From Singulisphaera acidiphila DSM 18658 (GTDB taxonomy: Bacteria > Planctomycetota > Planctomycetia > Isosphaerales > Isosphaeraceae): a DNA stretch of 64,000 nucleotides. The notes under the pieces were generated by a model. That model was given only the letters and a program-made list of their open reading frames with translations. It was not told the origin of the DNA and did not search any database. The stretch lies in assembly GCF_000242455.2 (NCBI RefSeq), contig NC_019892.1:1984001-2048000 (forward strand), in the 5' to 3' direction. A program made the position numbers and the translations under genes. This document shows, piece by piece, positions 13,940 to 38,838 of this stretch. Each line of letters begins with the position of its first letter. The first letter of the stretch is position 1.

Positions 13940-14125
13940 CGTCGCGAGGATGACCAAGTTCACTGTCCCGGTCTAAGGGAAGCCGGTGAGAATCCGGCGC
14001 GGCCCCGCCGCTGTAATTGGGAACGTTGCGTTCCGCTCCAAAAGCGAAGCCACTGCCCGCGCGATTCAGAAGCGGGTGGGAAGGCAGAACGCAGCGACGG
14101 CCCATGAGCCAGAAGACCTGACCGG
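13940..14125 (+). promoter_or_regulatory. Cobalamin riboswitch
   Basis: The conserved aptamer elements appear in order: AAGGGAAgccGGTGAGAATC CGGCGC, then GGCCCCGCCGCTGTAA (13998-14017 region), GCCACTG ... GGGAAGGC, and the closing GAGCCAGAAGACCTG (14106-14120). This matches the adenosylcobalamin riboswitch consensus, which shuts down expression when B12 is plentiful. It lies about 200 bases ahead of the cobN start. The expression platform is not clear to me; a pyrimidine run (ctttgtttcttttcttcac, about 14202-14220) follows but no strong terminator stem was found. Ends are approximate. Confidence 0.93.
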
Positions 14126-14326
14126 GATCTATCAGACCTCTGACGCCTTCGAGGGTGAGGCAGTCGAGGGATTTCGCGGACGTTCCCGGTTTCGTTGCGC
14201 CTTTGTTTCTTTTCTTCACTCGCGCAATCGAACCTGGGACGACTGTCCCGTCCTTCGGCATCACGCCCGCGATGCGTCTTCTGCGGCGGTGGCTCGACCA
14301 AGAGGCCCCCGACGCGCCGAAGGTGG

Positions 14327-31890: not shown

Positions 31891-32195
31891 CGGTCTCCAG
31901 GACTCCCGGTTTCCGAAGTGGCGTTTAGTGGAGTGTTCGCGTTGCCACTTCCTCTTGGGGATCACTCACCTCGACAATACCATCCGGATGACCTTCCAGC
32001 CAACCTCGTTCCTGAGCGTAACCTCAAAATTGGCTGGTATGTAGAACAAGTGAAGGCATTTCACGAAGACTTCAAATCCGATCGCGCCGACCGCTTGACG
32101 AGCGCTGGTAAATCGCTACAAGATGTTCCTGCGGCTTGGCCTTTTGCGTCACTCTCGTCCGTTGTGATCCTTCCACGAATTCGAGGTGCGTCACG
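31891..32195. other. Divergent intergenic gap
   Basis: The gap lies between the divergent hydrolase and SDR genes and should hold both promoters. No further gene is seen. Confidence 0.5.
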
Positions 32196-33206
32196 ATGCG
32201 TGTGTTCATCACGGGGGGAACCGGACTGATCGGCCGGCACCTGGTTCGGCGGCTGGCCGAGCGTGGCGACCAGCCGGTGATCCTGTCCCGACATGTGGAC
32301 CAGGTCCGCCGCGACCCGTCGATGCGCGTCCGTGAGATCGTCTCGGGGGATCCCACGACCTCAGGCGCCTGGCAGAGTGCGGTCGACGGCTGCGACGCCG
32401 TCGTGAACCTGGCCGGGCACAACATCTTCGAGGATCGCTGGAACGCGCAGGTCAAACGGAAGATTCGCGATAGCAGAGTCTACGGCACCGACAACCTCGT
32501 TGCCGCCATCGCCCGGGCGAAGACTCGGCCCAAGGTCATGGTCCAGTCCTCGGCGATCGGCTACTACGGCACGCCCGCCGAGACGGAATTGACCGAGGAG
32601 AGCCCGTCAGGTTCGGACTTCATGGCGGTCGTCTGCCGGGAATGGGAGGAGGCTGCGCACCACGTCGAAGCCTCGGACGTGCGACTCGCCTTGATCCGGA
32701 CCGGGGTCGTCCTGGAGCGAGGTGCCGGAGCCCTCGGCGTGATGACGCCGATCTTCAAGTGGCTGCCCTTGGGGGCGGCGCCGATCGGCAATGGCGGCAG
32801 TCTCTTCAAGCCGGCCCAAGGCCAGCAATGGATGAGCTGGATCCACATTGATGACATCGTTGGCATCTTGCTGCTGGCGATCGACCACTCGCAAGCGACG
32901 GGTCCGATCAACGGCACGGCCCCGAACCCGGTTCGCAATGCCGAGTTTTCCAAGGTGTTGGCCAAAAAAGTGTGGCGCCCTTGCTTACCGTTCGGTCCTC
33001 CCGACTCGCTCTTGAGAGTGGTTTACGGCGAAGTGGCCGACGTCATCACCAAGGGGCAGAAAGTGCTCCCGACCCGAGCGTTGGCGCTGGGCTATTCATT
33101 CAAGTATCCCAAGCTCGACGCCGCAATGACGGCTCTGTTCGCCAAGCCGGCCGCAGCTCCCAAGCCCGAACGCATCCCGGCCGCGAACTCCGGCCACTCT
33201 CATTGA
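32196..33206 (+). CDS. TIGR01777-family NAD(P)-binding SDR epimerase-like protein
   Basis: A 336-residue extended SDR of the TIGR01777 group (YfcH/SDR39U1). The Rossmann motif is MRVFITGGTGLIGRHLVRRL, followed by AVVNLAGHNIFEDRW, the substrate-region SSAIGYYG (Tyr of the YxxxK-like position in family-typical form) and the conserved SWIHIDDIVGILLLAID. A C-terminal DUF1731-like part (PFGPPDSLLRVVYGEVADVI, then GYSFKYPKLDAAMTALF) completes the family. ATG 32196 has GAGGTG eight bases ahead. A short Ala/Pro tail (AKPAAAPKPERIPAANSGHS) is added at the end. The reaction is unknown for the family. Confidence 0.88.
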   Translation: MRVFITGGTGLIGRHLVRRLAERGDQPVILSRHVDQVRRDPSMRVREIVSGDPTTSGAWQSAVDGCDAVVNLAGHNIFEDRWNAQVKRKIRDSRVYGTDNLVAAIARAKTRPKVMVQSSAIGYYGTPAETELTEESPSGSDFMAVVCREWEEAAHHVEASDVRLALIRTGVVLERGAGALGVMTPIFKWLPLGAAPIGNGGSLFKPAQGQQWMSWIHIDDIVGILLLAIDHSQATGPINGTAPNPVRNAEFSKVLAKKVWRPCLPFGPPDSLLRVVYGEVADVITKGQKVLPTRALALGYSFKYPKLDAAMTALFAKPAAAPKPERIPAANSGHSH

Positions 33207-33294: not shown

Positions 33295-34485
33295 ATGAGA
33301 CCGATCCCCCACGGTGGTAACCCGGCAGAGGCGCGACGCCGGTATGGGCTGGGTGATCGCCCATTAATTGATTTTTCCGCGTGTCTCAATCCGTTCGGCC
33401 CCTCCCCGGCGGTCATCAACGCCGCGCGCGCCGGACTTGACCGGGTCGGTGAGTTCCCGGAACCCGGTTGCCCTCGACTGACCGAACGGATCGCGGAATT
33501 CCATGGCGTTCCCATCGATCACGTGGTTGTGGGGGCGGGAACGAGCGAGTTGATCAGCCTGATCGCTCAGTCGCTCCGCGAGGTCCTGGCACTCCACGCC
33601 TACGAGAATGGCGACCCTGCCATGCCCGTTTCCCACCTGGTCGAGCCGACCTACGGCGAGTATCGCCGGGTGTCGGTTCTGAACGAGTTGCGAATCGAGG
33701 CGTGGGGGAACCACATCCTGAGCTGGCGCCAGGATGTGTTCCCAGGGCCGGCGGCCGGCGTCTTCTGGACGGGGCACCCGGACAATCCGACCGGCCGGGC
33801 CTGGGACCGGGCCGTGCTCTTGCCGCTGGTCGATGCCTCGCTTGGCCTCTTGACCGTGGTCGACGAGTCGTATCTCCTCTTCCTGCCCGACGAGGCGGAG
33901 CGGACCTTGGTGCAGGCGGCGACGAGTCGTGAAAACCTGCTCGTCCTCCGCTCGTTCAGCTCGATCGCCGCCATTCCAGGGCTCCGGATCGGATACGCCG
34001 TCGCTTCACCCGATATGGTGGTCCGGCTCAAACAGTACCAGGACCCCTGGACCATCACTCCAGTGGCCGAGGCCGCCGCACTCGCGGCGCTCGATGACGT
34101 TGACTCCCGGCAGCGCGTCGTCCACTTCCTTTCCGAAGAGACGCCTCGCCTGACCGAACGGCTCTGGGAGATCCCCGGCCTTCGCCCCGCCTGGCCCGAC
34201 CGCGAACGTCCTGTGGATGCCCCCCCTGCCCCGAATTGGCTCTTGGTGAGTCTCTCGGAGACGGCTTGGACCTCGACCCAGGTTCACGAAGCCCTGGCTC
34301 GCCTGGGATTCTTGGTCCGTGAGTGTTCCGACTATCGCGGCCTCGAAGTTGGGGCACTCCTCACGGGACCAGACAAATTGGTCGCCACCCAAGGCCATCT
34401 TCGAATCGCTGTGCGGACACCCCCCGAGAACGACCGGCTGACCGCCGCACTTGCCGAAGTCTTGAGTTCGGAGCCTCCCCGTTGA
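33295..34485 (+). CDS. CobD/HisC-like aminotransferase-fold protein lacking the PLP lysine
   Basis: A 396-residue fold-type I PLP protein in the place of threonine-phosphate decarboxylase (CobD/CobC), which makes aminopropanol phosphate for the nucleotide loop. It has IDFSACLNPFGPSPAVINAA, FPEPGCPRLTERIAEFHG, GAGTSELISLIAQ, HPDNPTGR, the PLP-ring Asp in TVVDESYLLF, phosphate-binding Arg in IPGLRIGY and substrate Arg in HLRIAVRTPPEN. The Schiff-base lysine of (S/T)xTK is absent: residues 220-223 are S-F-S-S and the codon at 33961 is TCG. If the sequence is right, classical PLP catalysis should fail. It heads a tight cluster with cobQ (TTGA overlap). No riboswitch is seen upstream. A pseudoenzyme, altered chemistry or a binding role are alternatives. 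Confidence 0.82.
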   Translation: MRPIPHGGNPAEARRRYGLGDRPLIDFSACLNPFGPSPAVINAARAGLDRVGEFPEPGCPRLTERIAEFHGVPIDHVVVGAGTSELISLIAQSLREVLALHAYENGDPAMPVSHLVEPTYGEYRRVSVLNELRIEAWGNHILSWRQDVFPGPAAGVFWTGHPDNPTGRAWDRAVLLPLVDASLGLLTVVDESYLLFLPDEAERTLVQAATSRENLLVLRSFSSIAAIPGLRIGYAVASPDMVVRLKQYQDPWTITPVAEAAALAALDDVDSRQRVVHFLSEETPRLTERLWEIPGLRPAWPDRERPVDAPPAPNWLLVSLSETAWTSTQVHEALARLGFLVRECSDYRGLEVGALLTGPDKLVATQGHLRIAVRTPPENDRLTAALAEVLSSEPPR

Positions 34486-36038
34486 CTCGTCCCGATTCCA
34501 CGCCTCGTGCTTCCAGCTTGATGGTCCTCGGCACCGCGAGCCACGTCGGCAAGAGCCTGCTCACGGCGGCCTTTTGCCGGCTGCTTGCGGAAGAGGGGCA
34601 CCGCGTTGCTCCCTTCAAAGCCCAGAACATGGCGCTCAATAGCTTCGTCACCTCCGAAGGGGGGGAAATCGGTCGTGCCCAAGTCGCGCAGGCCGAGGCG
34701 AGCGGCATCGAGCCTCACGTCGATATGAACCCGATTTTGCTCAAGCCGATGGGGGGCGTCTCCCAGGTCATCGTCAACGGCCACCCGATCGGCGTTATGT
34801 CGGCCCGCGAATACTACGCGGAGAAAGCGACCCTCTGGCCCCGGGTGACCGCCGCCTACGACCGCCTCGCCGGCCAGTATGAGCGGGTCGTTCTCGAGGG
34901 AGCAGGGAGTCCCGTCGAGATCAACCTCACCGAGCATGACCTGACGAACCTCAAAATGGCTCGCTATGCCGACGCCGCGGTCATTCTCGTGGCTGATATC
35001 GAACGGGGGGGCGTCTTCGCGCAGATCATCGGAACCTGGGAGCTCCTCGAACCCGGAGATCGAGCGCGCGTCGTCGGTTTCGTGATCAACAAGTTCCGAG
35101 GTGATGTGACTCTGCTCGATTCCGGGCTCGAGTTCGTCCGGGAACGAACCGGGGTGCCGGTGCTCGGGGTCCTTCCCTATCGGCCCGACCTGCAAATCGA
35201 CCAGGAAGACTCCCTCGGGATCGATGAGACGGCCACGCTCGATCGCGGTGAGCTTGGCCCCGGCGAGCTCGACGTGGCGGTTGCGCGGGTGCCCGGCCTG
35301 AGCAATTTCACCGATTTCTGGCCGTTGTCGCGCGTCCCCGGTGTCCGGGTTCGCTACATGGAGCGAGGAGCCCATTTCGGCCGGCCCGACCTTGTCGTTT
35401 TACCGGGGACGAAAACGACCGTTCGCGACCTCGACTGGCTGAGGAGGGTCGGACTTGCCGACCGGATCATCGCCTCTCGGGCCGAGGAGGACGGACCGCG
35501 GATCCTCGGGATCTGCGGCGGGTTCCAGATGCTCGGCCGTTGGATCGAGGACCCGCTCGGCGTCGAGTCGGATCGTGAGCGCGTGGAAGGACTCGGGCTG
35601 CTCGACACGGTCACCCGGTTCGCGGCGACCAAGACCCGGCATCTCGTGTCGGGCCAGGTCAACGGTTCGGACCTTGCCATCCTCGGTTACGAAATCCACA
35701 TGGGTGAAACCGAACGTAACGGTGCGACGATTCCTTGGCTCGCGCTGACGCGACGTCAGAACCAGACCACGATCCTCGACGGTGCGATCGATGAGGCAGG
35801 ACGAGTCTCAGGCACCTATGTTCACGGCCTGTTCGACAGTGCGCCGTTCACGGCCTCGTTTGTGAATGGACTCCGCGCCCGGCGCAAGTTCGCTCCGCTC
35901 GCGGAGCCCGAGTGGCAGTCGCATCGCGACTTTCTCGCCGCCCGCTACACGAACCTGGCCGAATTCCTCCGAGTCCACCTCGACCTCGCGCCGATCTGGT
36001 CGGTCCTCGGTGGACCTTCGGCTCGGAGCTCGGACTGA
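34482..36038 (+). CDS. cobQ: Cobyric acid synthase (glutamine-hydrolysing)
   Basis: A 518-residue CobQ/CbiP, which amidates adenosylcobyrinate a,c-diamide at b, d, e and g using glutamine and ATP. The N-terminal ATPase domain has SSLMVLGTASHVGKSLLTAA, APFKAQNMALNSFVTSEGGE and GGVFAQIIGTWELL. The C-terminal class I glutamine amidotransferase has Cys345 in ILGICGGFQMLG and His448 in SGTYVHGLFDS. The start is TTG 34482, overlapping the previous stop as TTGA, with GGAG eight bases ahead; ATG 34521 would clip the N-terminus and has no ribosome site. One base separates it from cbiB. Confidence 0.95.
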   Translation: MTRPDSTPRASSLMVLGTASHVGKSLLTAAFCRLLAEEGHRVAPFKAQNMALNSFVTSEGGEIGRAQVAQAEASGIEPHVDMNPILLKPMGGVSQVIVNGHPIGVMSAREYYAEKATLWPRVTAAYDRLAGQYERVVLEGAGSPVEINLTEHDLTNLKMARYADAAVILVADIERGGVFAQIIGTWELLEPGDRARVVGFVINKFRGDVTLLDSGLEFVRERTGVPVLGVLPYRPDLQIDQEDSLGIDETATLDRGELGPGELDVAVARVPGLSNFTDFWPLSRVPGVRVRYMERGAHFGRPDLVVLPGTKTTVRDLDWLRRVGLADRIIASRAEEDGPRILGICGGFQMLGRWIEDPLGVESDRERVEGLGLLDTVTRFAATKTRHLVSGQVNGSDLAILGYEIHMGETERNGATIPWLALTRRQNQTTILDGAIDEAGRVSGTYVHGLFDSAPFTASFVNGLRARRKFAPLAEPEWQSHRDFLAARYTNLAEFLRVHLDLAPIWSVLGGPSARSSD

Positions 36039-36039
36039 G

Positions 36040-37017
36040 ATGCCAGGTCTCCCCCTCGCGGTCTGGTCGCTCCCACTCGGCGCTACGCTCGATCTCCTGC
36101 TCGGTGATCCGAGGGGCTGGCCGCATCCCGTTCGGGCCATCGGCCATCTGATCGTTCGCCTTGAGGCCGTCGCGCGACGCTTGATCAAACAAGCAGGCGG
36201 GGGAGAGCGCACGGAGCGACTGGCGGGGATCTGGCTCACCGGCCATGTGGTCGGTATCGTGGGTGTGGCTGCATGGATGATTATTGTTGCATGTGACTGG
36301 CTTGGCCCAGTCCCCTCGCTGCTGGGCCGAAGTCTCCTGATCTATTGGGGCTTGGCCGCGCGGAGTCTTGGGGACGAGACCCTTCAAGCGTCGGAGGCGC
36401 CTGATCTCAAGACGGCCCGCCGCGAGCTGTCGATGATCGTCGGCCGCGATACCGCCACGCTCGACGAGGCCGAGATCGGCCGGGCCTGTGTGGAGACGGT
36501 GGCCGAGAACTATGCCGACGCCGTGGTCGCCCCCCTCTTCTGGTTTGTGATTGGCGGCCCTGTCGGTCTCTGGGCCTTCAAGGCCGTGAGCACTCTTGAT
36601 AGCATGGTCGGCTATCGCAATGCCAAGTATCGCGATCTCGGATGGGCGTCGGCACGGTTCGACGATGTCGCGGCCCTGATCCCGTCCCGATTGGCCTGGC
36701 TGCTGATTGGTCTCGCGGCCTGGGTTGCGGGCGAGCGGCCGGGGAATGCCCTCCGCATTGGCTGGCGTGACGGCCGCAAGCACCCGAGTCCGAATGCCGG
36801 GTGGGGGGAAGCCGCCATGGCGGGGGCCCTGGGCATTCAGCTCGGTGGACCGGCCACCTATGGTGGCGTTCCTGGCTTCAAGCCGTTGCTGGGTGAGCCG
36901 GACGAACCGATCGATCGGACCACCGTCCGTCGCTCGGTCCGGGTGATGCGGATTGCCGCGACCTTGGCGGTCGCTTTCGCCTGGGGAGTCCGGAGCGGGC
37001 TCTTCGGCTCGCCTTGA
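36040..37017 (+). CDS. cbiB: Adenosylcobinamide-phosphate synthase
   Basis: A 325-residue polytopic membrane protein of the CbiB (CobD of Pseudomonas) family, which couples adenosylcobyrate to aminopropanol or its phosphate. Hallmarks are GATLDLLLGDPRGWPHPVRA near the start, VGRDTATLDEAEIGRACVET, ENYADAVVAPLFWFVIGGPV, STLDSMVGYRNAKYRDLGWA and the C-terminal HPSPNAGWGEAAMAGALGIQ. About five TM segments are present. ATG 36040 follows the cobQ stop by one base. Its amine substrate would normally be made by CobD, so the lysine-less neighbour is directly relevant. Confidence 0.95.
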   Translation: MPGLPLAVWSLPLGATLDLLLGDPRGWPHPVRAIGHLIVRLEAVARRLIKQAGGGERTERLAGIWLTGHVVGIVGVAAWMIIVACDWLGPVPSLLGRSLLIYWGLAARSLGDETLQASEAPDLKTARRELSMIVGRDTATLDEAEIGRACVETVAENYADAVVAPLFWFVIGGPVGLWAFKAVSTLDSMVGYRNAKYRDLGWASARFDDVAALIPSRLAWLLIGLAAWVAGERPGNALRIGWRDGRKHPSPNAGWGEAAMAGALGIQLGGPATYGGVPGFKPLLGEPDEPIDRTTVRRSVRVMRIAATLAVAFAWGVRSGLFGSP

Positions 37018-37118: not shown

Positions 37119-38144
37119 ATGTCAGAGGCCTTGCTGATCGCTGCGCACGGCAGCCGCGATGAGGCGGGGGTGGAGGAATTCTGGGACTTTGCCGACGCCT
37201 GGCGTCAGCTCCGCCCCGACCGGATCCAGGGGGCCGGGTTCCTCGAGTTTGCCCAGCCCACGATCGGTGCCGCGATCGACGAACTCATTGACCGCGGCGC
37301 GACCCGGATCGTTATCGTTCCCGCTATGCTGATGGCGGCCGGCCACGTCAAGAACGACGTGCCGAGCGAGGTGCAGGAGTCGCGGGTCCGGCACCCGAAT
37401 GTGACGTTCCAGATGGCCCGCGCCCTCGACATCCACCCGGCGCTCCTGGAACTCTGCCACATCCGCTATCGCGAGACGATCGCTCCTCTGAGCGCGGTCC
37501 CTGCGGAACGGACTCTGCTCCTCGTCGTGGGTCGGGGGACGTCCGACCCGGACGCCAATGCGAACATCGCGCGCGTTTCGCGGTTCCTCTGGGAGTCGTA
37601 CGGGGTTGGCTGGGCGAGCGTTGCCTTCTCGGGTGTTACCTCGCCCGACGTCGATCGGGCGTTGTCCGTCTGCCGCCGACTTGGCTTCGACCGGATCGTG
37701 GTTCAACCCTACTTCCTCTTCGACGGCATTCTCCTGAAGCGGATTCGCGACACGGCCGCTCGTCATGCTGCGCTCGACCCGAGCGTCGAGATTGTGACGG
37801 TCCCCCACCTCCGCCTCCATCCGCTCTTGCTCCAGGCGTTCGAGGACCGGGCGCACGAAGCGATCCACGGCACCCCGCACATGAACTGCGACCTCTGCAA
37901 ATATCGGGTTCGGCTGATCGGTCGCGAGTCGGACGTCGGCCTGCCGCAGGTAGGCCATCATCACCATGTTCGGGCCTCGGCGGACCTGCTGGACGACGAC
38001 TTCGACCACGGCCACGACCATCGCCTCCGACGGCGGCGGCCGACCCTTGTGCCAGCGGCCGACACGACCTTCCACCCGTGGGATGAGCGCTTGCTCGAGC
38101 GGTTGCACTTGATCAACGAGTCGAGGTCACCGCGTGTCTTTTGA
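37119..38144 (+). CDS. cbiX: Sirohydrochlorin cobaltochelatase CbiX, long form with Fe-S motif and His-rich tail
   Basis: A 341-residue class II chelatase of the CbiX type, inserting cobalt early into sirohydrochlorin. Two tandem chelatase halves are visible: LLIAAHGSRDEAGVEEFWDF (His10) with MAAGHVKNDVPSEVQ (His76), then LLLVVGRGTSDPDANANIAR and PYFLFDGILLKRI. The C-terminus carries MNCDLC (residues 255-260), the MxCxxC motif that binds an Fe-S cluster in the Bacillus megaterium enzyme, and a His/Asp cluster (GHHHHV and DDDFDHGHDH, 279-301) likely to store or hand over cobalt. It lies 101 bases after cbiB and overlaps cobI by 11 bases. Confidence 0.93.
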   Translation: MSEALLIAAHGSRDEAGVEEFWDFADAWRQLRPDRIQGAGFLEFAQPTIGAAIDELIDRGATRIVIVPAMLMAAGHVKNDVPSEVQESRVRHPNVTFQMARALDIHPALLELCHIRYRETIAPLSAVPAERTLLLVVGRGTSDPDANANIARVSRFLWESYGVGWASVAFSGVTSPDVDRALSVCRRLGFDRIVVQPYFLFDGILLKRIRDTAARHAALDPSVEIVTVPHLRLHPLLLQAFEDRAHEAIHGTPHMNCDLCKYRVRLIGRESDVGLPQVGHHHHVRASADLLDDDFDHGHDHRLRRRRPTLVPAADTTFHPWDERLLERLHLINESRSPRVF

Positions 38145-38838
38145 GCTGGCGACGGTCTATGTGGTCGGGGTCGGCCCTGGGGAAACCGATCTCCTCACCC
38201 TTCGAGCCGTGAAGGTTCTCGAACGCTCCGAGGTGATCTTCCACCCGGGACCCCGGGACGACACCGGGTTCGCGTTGGGCGTCGTCGCCCCCCTGCTCCG
38301 TCCGAATCAGGTCGTCCGCGGCGCCTCGCTTGCGATGCGCCGCGGCCCTGACGACGGCACGGTCGGTTATGAACGGGTGGCCCAGCTTCTCGCCCACGAA
38401 GCCAGGCAAGGTCGAACCGTGGCCTTCCTGACCGAAGGCGACCCGATGCTCTTCGGCTCGGGGTCATACGTTGCCGAGCGACTTCGGTCGGTTGCCCCGG
38501 ACGTGCCGGTCGAGATCGTTCCAGGGGTCAGCGCGTCGTCGTCGGCCGCCGCGCGGTTGGGCTGGCCTTTGGCTCAAAAAGACGAAATTCTCACGATCTG
38601 TCCGGGGACTTATCACCCTGACGAGATTGGCGAGATTCTCGATCGCGGTGGCCCGGTCTGCTGGTTCAAAGCGGCCGCTGTGCTCCCTCAGTTGGTCGAA
38701 GAGCTTCGCCGGCGCGGTCGTCTTGATCACGCGGCCCTTGTCGAGCGAGTGGGCCATCCCAACGAGCGCATCTTCCTCGATGTTTCGGATGCGCTCAAGG
38801 TAAATCTGTCTTACTTTTCGCTCGTCCTGGTACGGTGA
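38134..38838 (+). CDS. cobI: Precorrin-2 C20-methyltransferase
   Basis: A 234-residue tetrapyrrole methylase of the CobI/CbiL type, transferring a methyl from SAM to C20 of (cobalt-)precorrin-2. It has YVVGVGPGETDLLTLRAVKV, VAFLTEGDPMLFGSGSYVAE and EIVPGVSASSSAAARLGWPL, and ends with VERVGHPNERIFLDVSDAL and NLSYFSLVLV, all in family order. The start is GTG 38134 with GAGGT in front, overlapping the cbiX end by 11 bases; this fits translational coupling. Placed right after the early chelatase it would act on cobalt-precorrin-2, so CbiL-type specificity is likely. Confidence 0.92.
   Translation: MSFELATVYVVGVGPGETDLLTLRAVKVLERSEVIFHPGPRDDTGFALGVVAPLLRPNQVVRGASLAMRRGPDDGTVGYERVAQLLAHEARQGRTVAFLTEGDPMLFGSGSYVAERLRSVAPDVPVEIVPGVSASSSAAARLGWPLAQKDEILTICPGTYHPDEIGEILDRGGPVCWFKAAAVLPQLVEELRRRGRLDHAALVERVGHPNERIFLDVSDALKVNLSYFSLVLVR

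Follow-up and report, generated by a model that had tools for sequence, protein, structure and literature searches.

A CobD-like protein without the Schiff-base lysine in a cobalamin operon of Singulisphaera acidiphila and its lysine-bearing paralogue

A cobalamin operon of Singulisphaera acidiphila DSM 18658 contains a gene for a protein that resembles threonine-phosphate decarboxylase (CobD) but has serine at the place of the lysine that binds pyridoxal phosphate (PLP). Decarboxylation of threonine phosphate by CobC/CobD comes before the CbiB step of cobalamin synthesis (review PMC7242693). The locus raises the question of which protein supplies aminopropanol phosphate to this operon and why a CobD-like protein without its lysine is kept there. 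The original prediction, made from the letters of this DNA, offered three options, namely that the protein works without a lysine, that it serves as a binder or scaffold, or that another protein supplies aminopropanol phosphate.

The operon and the missing lysine

The window, that is, the whole stretch of DNA analysed (64,000 nucleotides), contains the following features around the gene under study:

32190..33206, + strand: TIGR01777-family oxidoreductase, directly upstream of the CobD-like gene
33295..34485, + strand: lysine-less CobD-like gene, 396 aa, fold-type I PLP-enzyme fold (TIGR01140, AlphaFold2 model, dN/dS)
33454..33456, + strand: codon TTC, Phe54, opposite Tyr56 of Salmonella CobD (RYP motif)
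33961..33963, + strand: codon TCG, Ser223, which aligns with Lys216, the Schiff-base residue of Salmonella CobD
34482..36038, + strand: cobQ, cobyric acid synthase (NF001989/TIGR00313 above cut-off)
36040..37017, + strand: cbiB, adenosylcobinamide-phosphate synthase, which uses aminopropanol phosphate (TIGR00380 above cut-off, PF03186)
37122..38144, + strand: CbiX-type cobaltochelatase (PF01903)
38134..38838, + strand: cobI/cbiL, precorrin-2 C20-methyltransferase (TIGR01467 above cut-off)

The TTG start codon of cobQ overlaps the stop codon of the CobD-like gene (TTGA, 34482-34485), and the same gene order, with cobQ and cbiB, was found in the genomes G038, G009, G027, G015 and G024. In addition, the window contains a cobN-like cluster with a cobalamin riboswitch at 14-22.7 kb, as well as cobJ-cbiC and cbiET genes at 58.8-62.9 kb, and a CobS gene is located elsewhere in the genome. 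With these genes the pathway looks intact and requires aminopropanol phosphate. The riboswitch (13953-14139, 88.5 bits) lies ahead of a 1307-aa CobN-looking ORF, and the window seems to have a CobN-type chelatase gene in addition to the CbiX-type one (37122-38144).

The best NCBIfam match of the protein was TIGR01140 (CobD) with 205.5 bits, which is under the curated equivalog cut-off of 290.55 bits. A lysine-bearing paralogue from the same genome, described below, scored 234.1 bits and is likewise under this cut-off; judging by these two scored proteins, the whole CobD-like group of Isosphaeraceae appears to be divergent. Modeling with AlphaFold2 led to a model with a mean pLDDT of 86, for which the top PDB matches found by Foldseek were the Salmonella CobD structures 1LC7, 1LKC and 1LC8 (TM 0.79-0.81 by query length), and the protein is accordingly predicted to have the CobD fold. 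Like Salmonella CobD (L-threonine-O-3-phosphate decarboxylase; 1LC5, 1LC7, 1LC8, 1LKC), to which it can be aligned over the full length (E 6e-31, 27-28% identity), it is encoded in an operon with cobQ and cbiB and retains most residues of the PLP site. Unlike it, the protein has no Schiff-base lysine, has Phe instead of Tyr56 and contains an extra loop, GLEVGALLTGPDKLVATQG, ahead of the last Arg motif, which is common to most of the Isosphaeraceae group.

The ORF at 33295-34485 (+) is open and Ser223 is located within R-S-F-S-S-I-A-A-I-P-G-L-R-I-G-Y. In the phmmer alignment with 1LC5, VLRSFSS of the window protein is opposite VLRSLTK of the Salmonella enzyme, which places Ser223 opposite Lys216. 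The pattern [LMFV][TS]K before GLR[LIV]GY, which marks the Schiff-base lysine, is not matched because of Ser223, and Phe54 is found where the RYP motif has its tyrosine. Thus, the reading of the ORF, the comparison with 1LC5 and the family alignment bear out the absence of the lysine from the codon at 33961-33963. The original prediction also held that the remaining ligand residues were all intact. This stands for the Asn, the Asp and both Arg motifs, since HGG, the Asn of NPTG, the Asp of VVDE and the Arg residues of LRIGY and HLRIAVR are all present in the alignment (Asn164, Asp190, Arg231 and the C-terminal Arg residues), but it does not stand for the tyrosine, which is changed (Tyr54Phe).

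Enzymes of fold type I use this tyrosine to contact the PLP phosphate across the dimer, in the partner subunit. Since it has been lost beside the lysine, PLP binding by homodimers of the Singulisphaera protein is probably gone, as this pair of substitutions suggests. A replacement lysine was sought elsewhere in the window protein, and the only candidates were K246, K281 and K361, none of them convincing: K246 is also Lys in some lysine-bearing relatives, K281 recurs in Singulisphaera sp. GP187 alone, and K361 is located in a loop.

Recurrent loss of the lysine and a lysine-bearing paralogue

Comparison within Isosphaeraceae, where the same Lys-to-Ser change had been proposed as a check, revealed that the lysine was lost in two more genomes, although as Pro and Gly and not as Ser. 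In the orthologue from Singulisphaera sp. GP187 (G038), which shares 88% identity with the window protein, the codon is CCG (Pro). In the homologue from G043, which belongs to another genus of the family (g21), it is GGC (Gly), and this Gly variant was read from a MAG of low coverage. At this site, Lys is present in all 16 lysine-bearing homologues compared within Isosphaeraceae, together with the equivalent of Tyr54. All of 12 additional homologues from the rest of the class have the lysine as well, as do all 50 TIGR01140 matches read across the phylum, 49 of which also have the Tyr56 equivalent. No further lysine-less CobD was found among these 12 class-level and 50 phylum-level homologues or in two Haladaptatus CobD proteins, both of which have Lys.

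In the phylogenetic tree the genes of both Singulisphaera genomes group together (100/99), and the lysine-less gene of G043 pairs with a lysine-bearing gene of G044 (100/100). A codon-based ancestral reconstruction assigned Lys to the ancestor of the window-type genes (at least 0.996) and to the common ancestor of the G043 and G044 genes in genus g21 (0.86-0.98), and a residue other than Lys to that of the two Singulisphaera genes. These values depend on the codon model used, which has a single omega, and the branches are long. Taken together, the tree and the reconstruction indicate that the lysine was lost twice, independently, from a lysine-bearing ancestor. Of 70 columns that do not vary among the lysine-bearing relatives, four are changed in the window protein (A47G, Y54F, K223S, R337L), five in the GP187 protein, two in the G043 protein (L176T, K223G) and none in the paralogue. 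When the lysine-bearing members are counted in the same leave-one-out way, 0 to 8 columns are changed. The lysine-less protein of G043 retains Tyr at the position equivalent to 54.

Some features of other genomes of the family should be mentioned. A DNA gyrase B-like ORF is located on the opposite strand between the Gly-variant CobD-like gene and cbiB in G043 (L033:930-2281). The incomplete genomes G043 and G044 yielded neither cobQ nor CobS. In G013, the beginning of the CobD-like gene is present in two slightly different copies on two contigs (L035, L036), probably as a result of a strain mixture in the MAG.

A search of the whole S. acidiphila genome with TIGR01140 gave three strong matches, namely the window gene, HisC and a paralogue at G000:C1:3926091-3927344. 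HisC (L002) was rejected as a source of the activity, being a histidinol-phosphate aminotransferase that adjoins a hisD-like ORF and not a CobD candidate. Besides HisC, the paralogue is the only strong lysine-bearing CobD-like match in the genome; it is located 1.9 Mb away, is 57% identical to the window protein and has the lysine intact (R-S-M-T-K-I-Y-A-F-P-G-L-R-I-G-Y). Thus, the second CobD whose search had been suggested does exist, and it lends strong support to the option that another protein supplies aminopropanol phosphate. The same lysine-bearing paralogue is present in GP187, G043 and G044. All three lysine-less genes occur in genomes with this paralogue (three of the four two-copy genomes; in G044 both copies have Lys), and the lysine was lost in none of the 11 single-copy genomes (Fisher p about 0.009 against the two-copy genomes, with relatedness ignored).

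The paralogue is located away from the B12 genes, downstream of tRNA genes, and no cobalamin riboswitch was found in the 18 kb around it, so that its role in B12 synthesis rests on homology and elimination. A run of five tRNAs within 2.5 kb lies upstream of it (L030:5189-7619), the last about 470 bases before the gene; tRNAs are also found upstream of the paralogue in GP187, and this may be an integration site. In genus g21, a carbon-nitrogen hydrolase gene is located near the lysine-bearing paralogue in one genome and a gene of the PAD_porph/agmatine-deiminase type in the other (L034:999-1859, L039:4933-6039); such genes are often part of polyamine synthesis.

Selection on the lysine-less gene and alternative explanations

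For the window gene and its GP187 orthologue, a dN/dS of 0.12 was found (bootstrap 0.087-0.165). The values for the same pair of genomes were 0.119 for cobQ, 0.114 for cbiX, 0.145 for cobI, 0.154 for cbiB and 0.044 for the paralogue. Around the lost lysine (residues 199-264) the dN/dS was 0.11, and the constraint spans the whole length of the protein. Branch models gave an omega of 0.083 for the Singulisphaera tips, 0.079 for their stem and 0.041 for G043, compared with 0.069 for the background and 0.047 for the paralogue clade; the difference between the lysine-less branches and the rest was not significant (p = 0.34). Neutrality on the lysine-less tips was rejected (2dlnL 244, p ~ 5e-55), as was omega = 1 for the Singulisphaera tips alone (p ~ 1e-49). 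The close Singulisphaera pair provides the firmest evidence, since synonymous changes are near saturation on deeper branches, and the codon models point to purifying selection that acted in Singulisphaera after the lysine was lost. The branch of G043 is long and its lysine may have disappeared only recently, so the constraint measured there may predate the loss. A pseudogene is ruled out by the codon models and the open frame (omega 0.04-0.08 on lysine-less branches), in agreement with the original view that the gene is not decayed.

A related explanation is that the gene is on its way out, the lysine having been lost after the paralogue took over and the frame being open only by translational coupling to cobQ. 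A lysine-bearing paralogue does make the enzyme redundant, the stop codon overlaps the cobQ start, and the dN/dS of 0.12 is higher than that of the paralogue. However, the rejection of omega = 1 on the lysine-less branches, a constraint equal to that of the lysine-bearing relatives and the operon neighbours and extending through the region of the lost lysine, and the change of no more than four of the 70 invariant columns are at odds with decay; moreover, coupling needs an open frame and not conserved amino acids. This explanation is already largely refuted and we consider it improbable.

A CobD-like gene was found in 15 of 45 Isosphaeraceae genomes, and a search at the order level added no genomes beyond this family. 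Four near-complete genomes, G005 (L048), G011 (L044), G012 (L045) and G026 (L042), have a lysine-bearing CobD-like gene and lack cobQ and cbiB; CobS is also absent from G005, G011 and G026, and G012 has CobS only. As in the window, a TIGR01777 oxidoreductase gene still precedes the CobD-like gene in G005, G011 and G026. These solo copies hint that the CobD-like protein of Isosphaeraceae may also have a function outside B12 synthesis, which could also explain the strong conservation of the paralogue. In a family with such a second, B12-independent job, the lysine-less copy might be a remnant of the B12 copy, its product being unneeded owing to another linker or an imported precursor. We consider this explanation for the lysine-less copy similarly improbable: selection on cobQ, cbiB, cbiX and cobI is normal in Singulisphaera, so synthesis of cobinamide phosphate seems to be kept there, and it needs an amino-alcohol phosphate.

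Slightly less credible still is a lysine-independent enzyme that would hold PLP as an external aldimine, or use PMP, and catalyse without the lysine. In its favour, the protein retains Asn164, Asp190, Arg231 and the Arg residues near its C-terminus, and ColD-type dehydratases of the same fold are functional with His in place of Lys. In the lysine-less CobD-like proteins, however, the site holds Ser, Pro or Gly depending on the genome, which means that no side chain has been selected as a base there and makes catalysis without the lysine, the first option of the original prediction, unlikely; Tyr54 is also lost in Singulisphaera, and the only conserved new lysine that might be near the site is K361 in the loop. 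Finally, a sequencing or assembly error behind the missing lysine is ruled out for practical purposes by the independent isolate genome of GP187 (Pro), the Gly variant in another genus, the need for at least two base changes from AAG to TCG or CCG and three to GGC, and the intact frame and neighbours.

Proposed roles of the two copies and comparison with known systems

The explanation that we prefer, with a probability of about 0.7, is that the paralogue decarboxylates threonine phosphate for the B12 of the operon and that the lysine-less copy is retained because it has a function other than catalysis at this step. The latter would be a pseudoenzyme conserved in the part of B12 synthesis that provides aminopropanol phosphate, most likely acting either as a subunit or regulator that pairs with the active paralogue or as a protein that holds threonine phosphate or aminopropanol phosphate beside CbiB, which is encoded in the same operon. 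The sequence constraint fits the binder or scaffold role that was among the original options. Several observations speak against this explanation. Tyr54Phe weakens the idea that the lysine-less protein lends its Tyr to the site of an active partner, and with it the catalytic-heterodimer form in Singulisphaera, although the G043 protein retains Tyr; and G044 has Lys in both copies. The position of the paralogue apart from the B12 genes and the divergence of the Isosphaeraceae group from TIGR01140 count against it as well.

Conserved dead paralogues and the CobD family are known already; no report of a lysine-less CobD was found in the literature searched, which covered few subscription journals. 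The selection-kept dead paralogues compared here are mainly eukaryotic, and the Singulisphaera case is bacterial and belongs to a textbook pathway. It has been caught early, when no cofactor residues other than the lysine and one further residue had disappeared. The lysine was lost twice independently, an active paralogue exists and the reaction can be assayed in a single step, so the case would test why a dead subunit is kept: for pairing, ligand handling or regulation. As the operon copy has no catalytic residue, annotation by family name would give the decarboxylase activity to the wrong gene.

Two CobD paralogues within one B12 genome are known from Haloferax (CobD1/CobD2, PMC8305020), but lysine loss is not reported there. 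The prozyme of trypanosome AdoMetDC (PMC5201418) and a dead paralogue of deoxyhypusine synthase (PMC3663545) are similar in that selection retains a catalytically dead paralogue beside an active copy; they differ in being demonstrated activators, of other folds and eukaryotic. The nearest precedent by analogy is eukaryotic serine palmitoyltransferase, in which LCB1/SPTLC1 has no PLP lysine and works as the partner of LCB2 (PMC3794620). In both cases, a fold-type I paralogue without the PLP lysine is retained beside a lysine-bearing one. The differences are that the heterodimer is demonstrated for serine palmitoyltransferase, which catalyses another reaction, and is only proposed for the two S. 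acidiphila proteins; furthermore, the lysine loss here is young, with nearly all other pocket residues present. More tentatively, and with less confidence than in the general explanation, threonine-phosphate decarboxylase in Singulisphaera and the related genus might be a two-gene system composed of an active lysine-bearing CobD and a dead CobD from the operon. By binding to the active protein or to CbiB, the dead one would control or channel aminopropanol phosphate, as a bacterial B12 counterpart of LCB1/LCB2 or of a prozyme that would have evolved twice in parallel.
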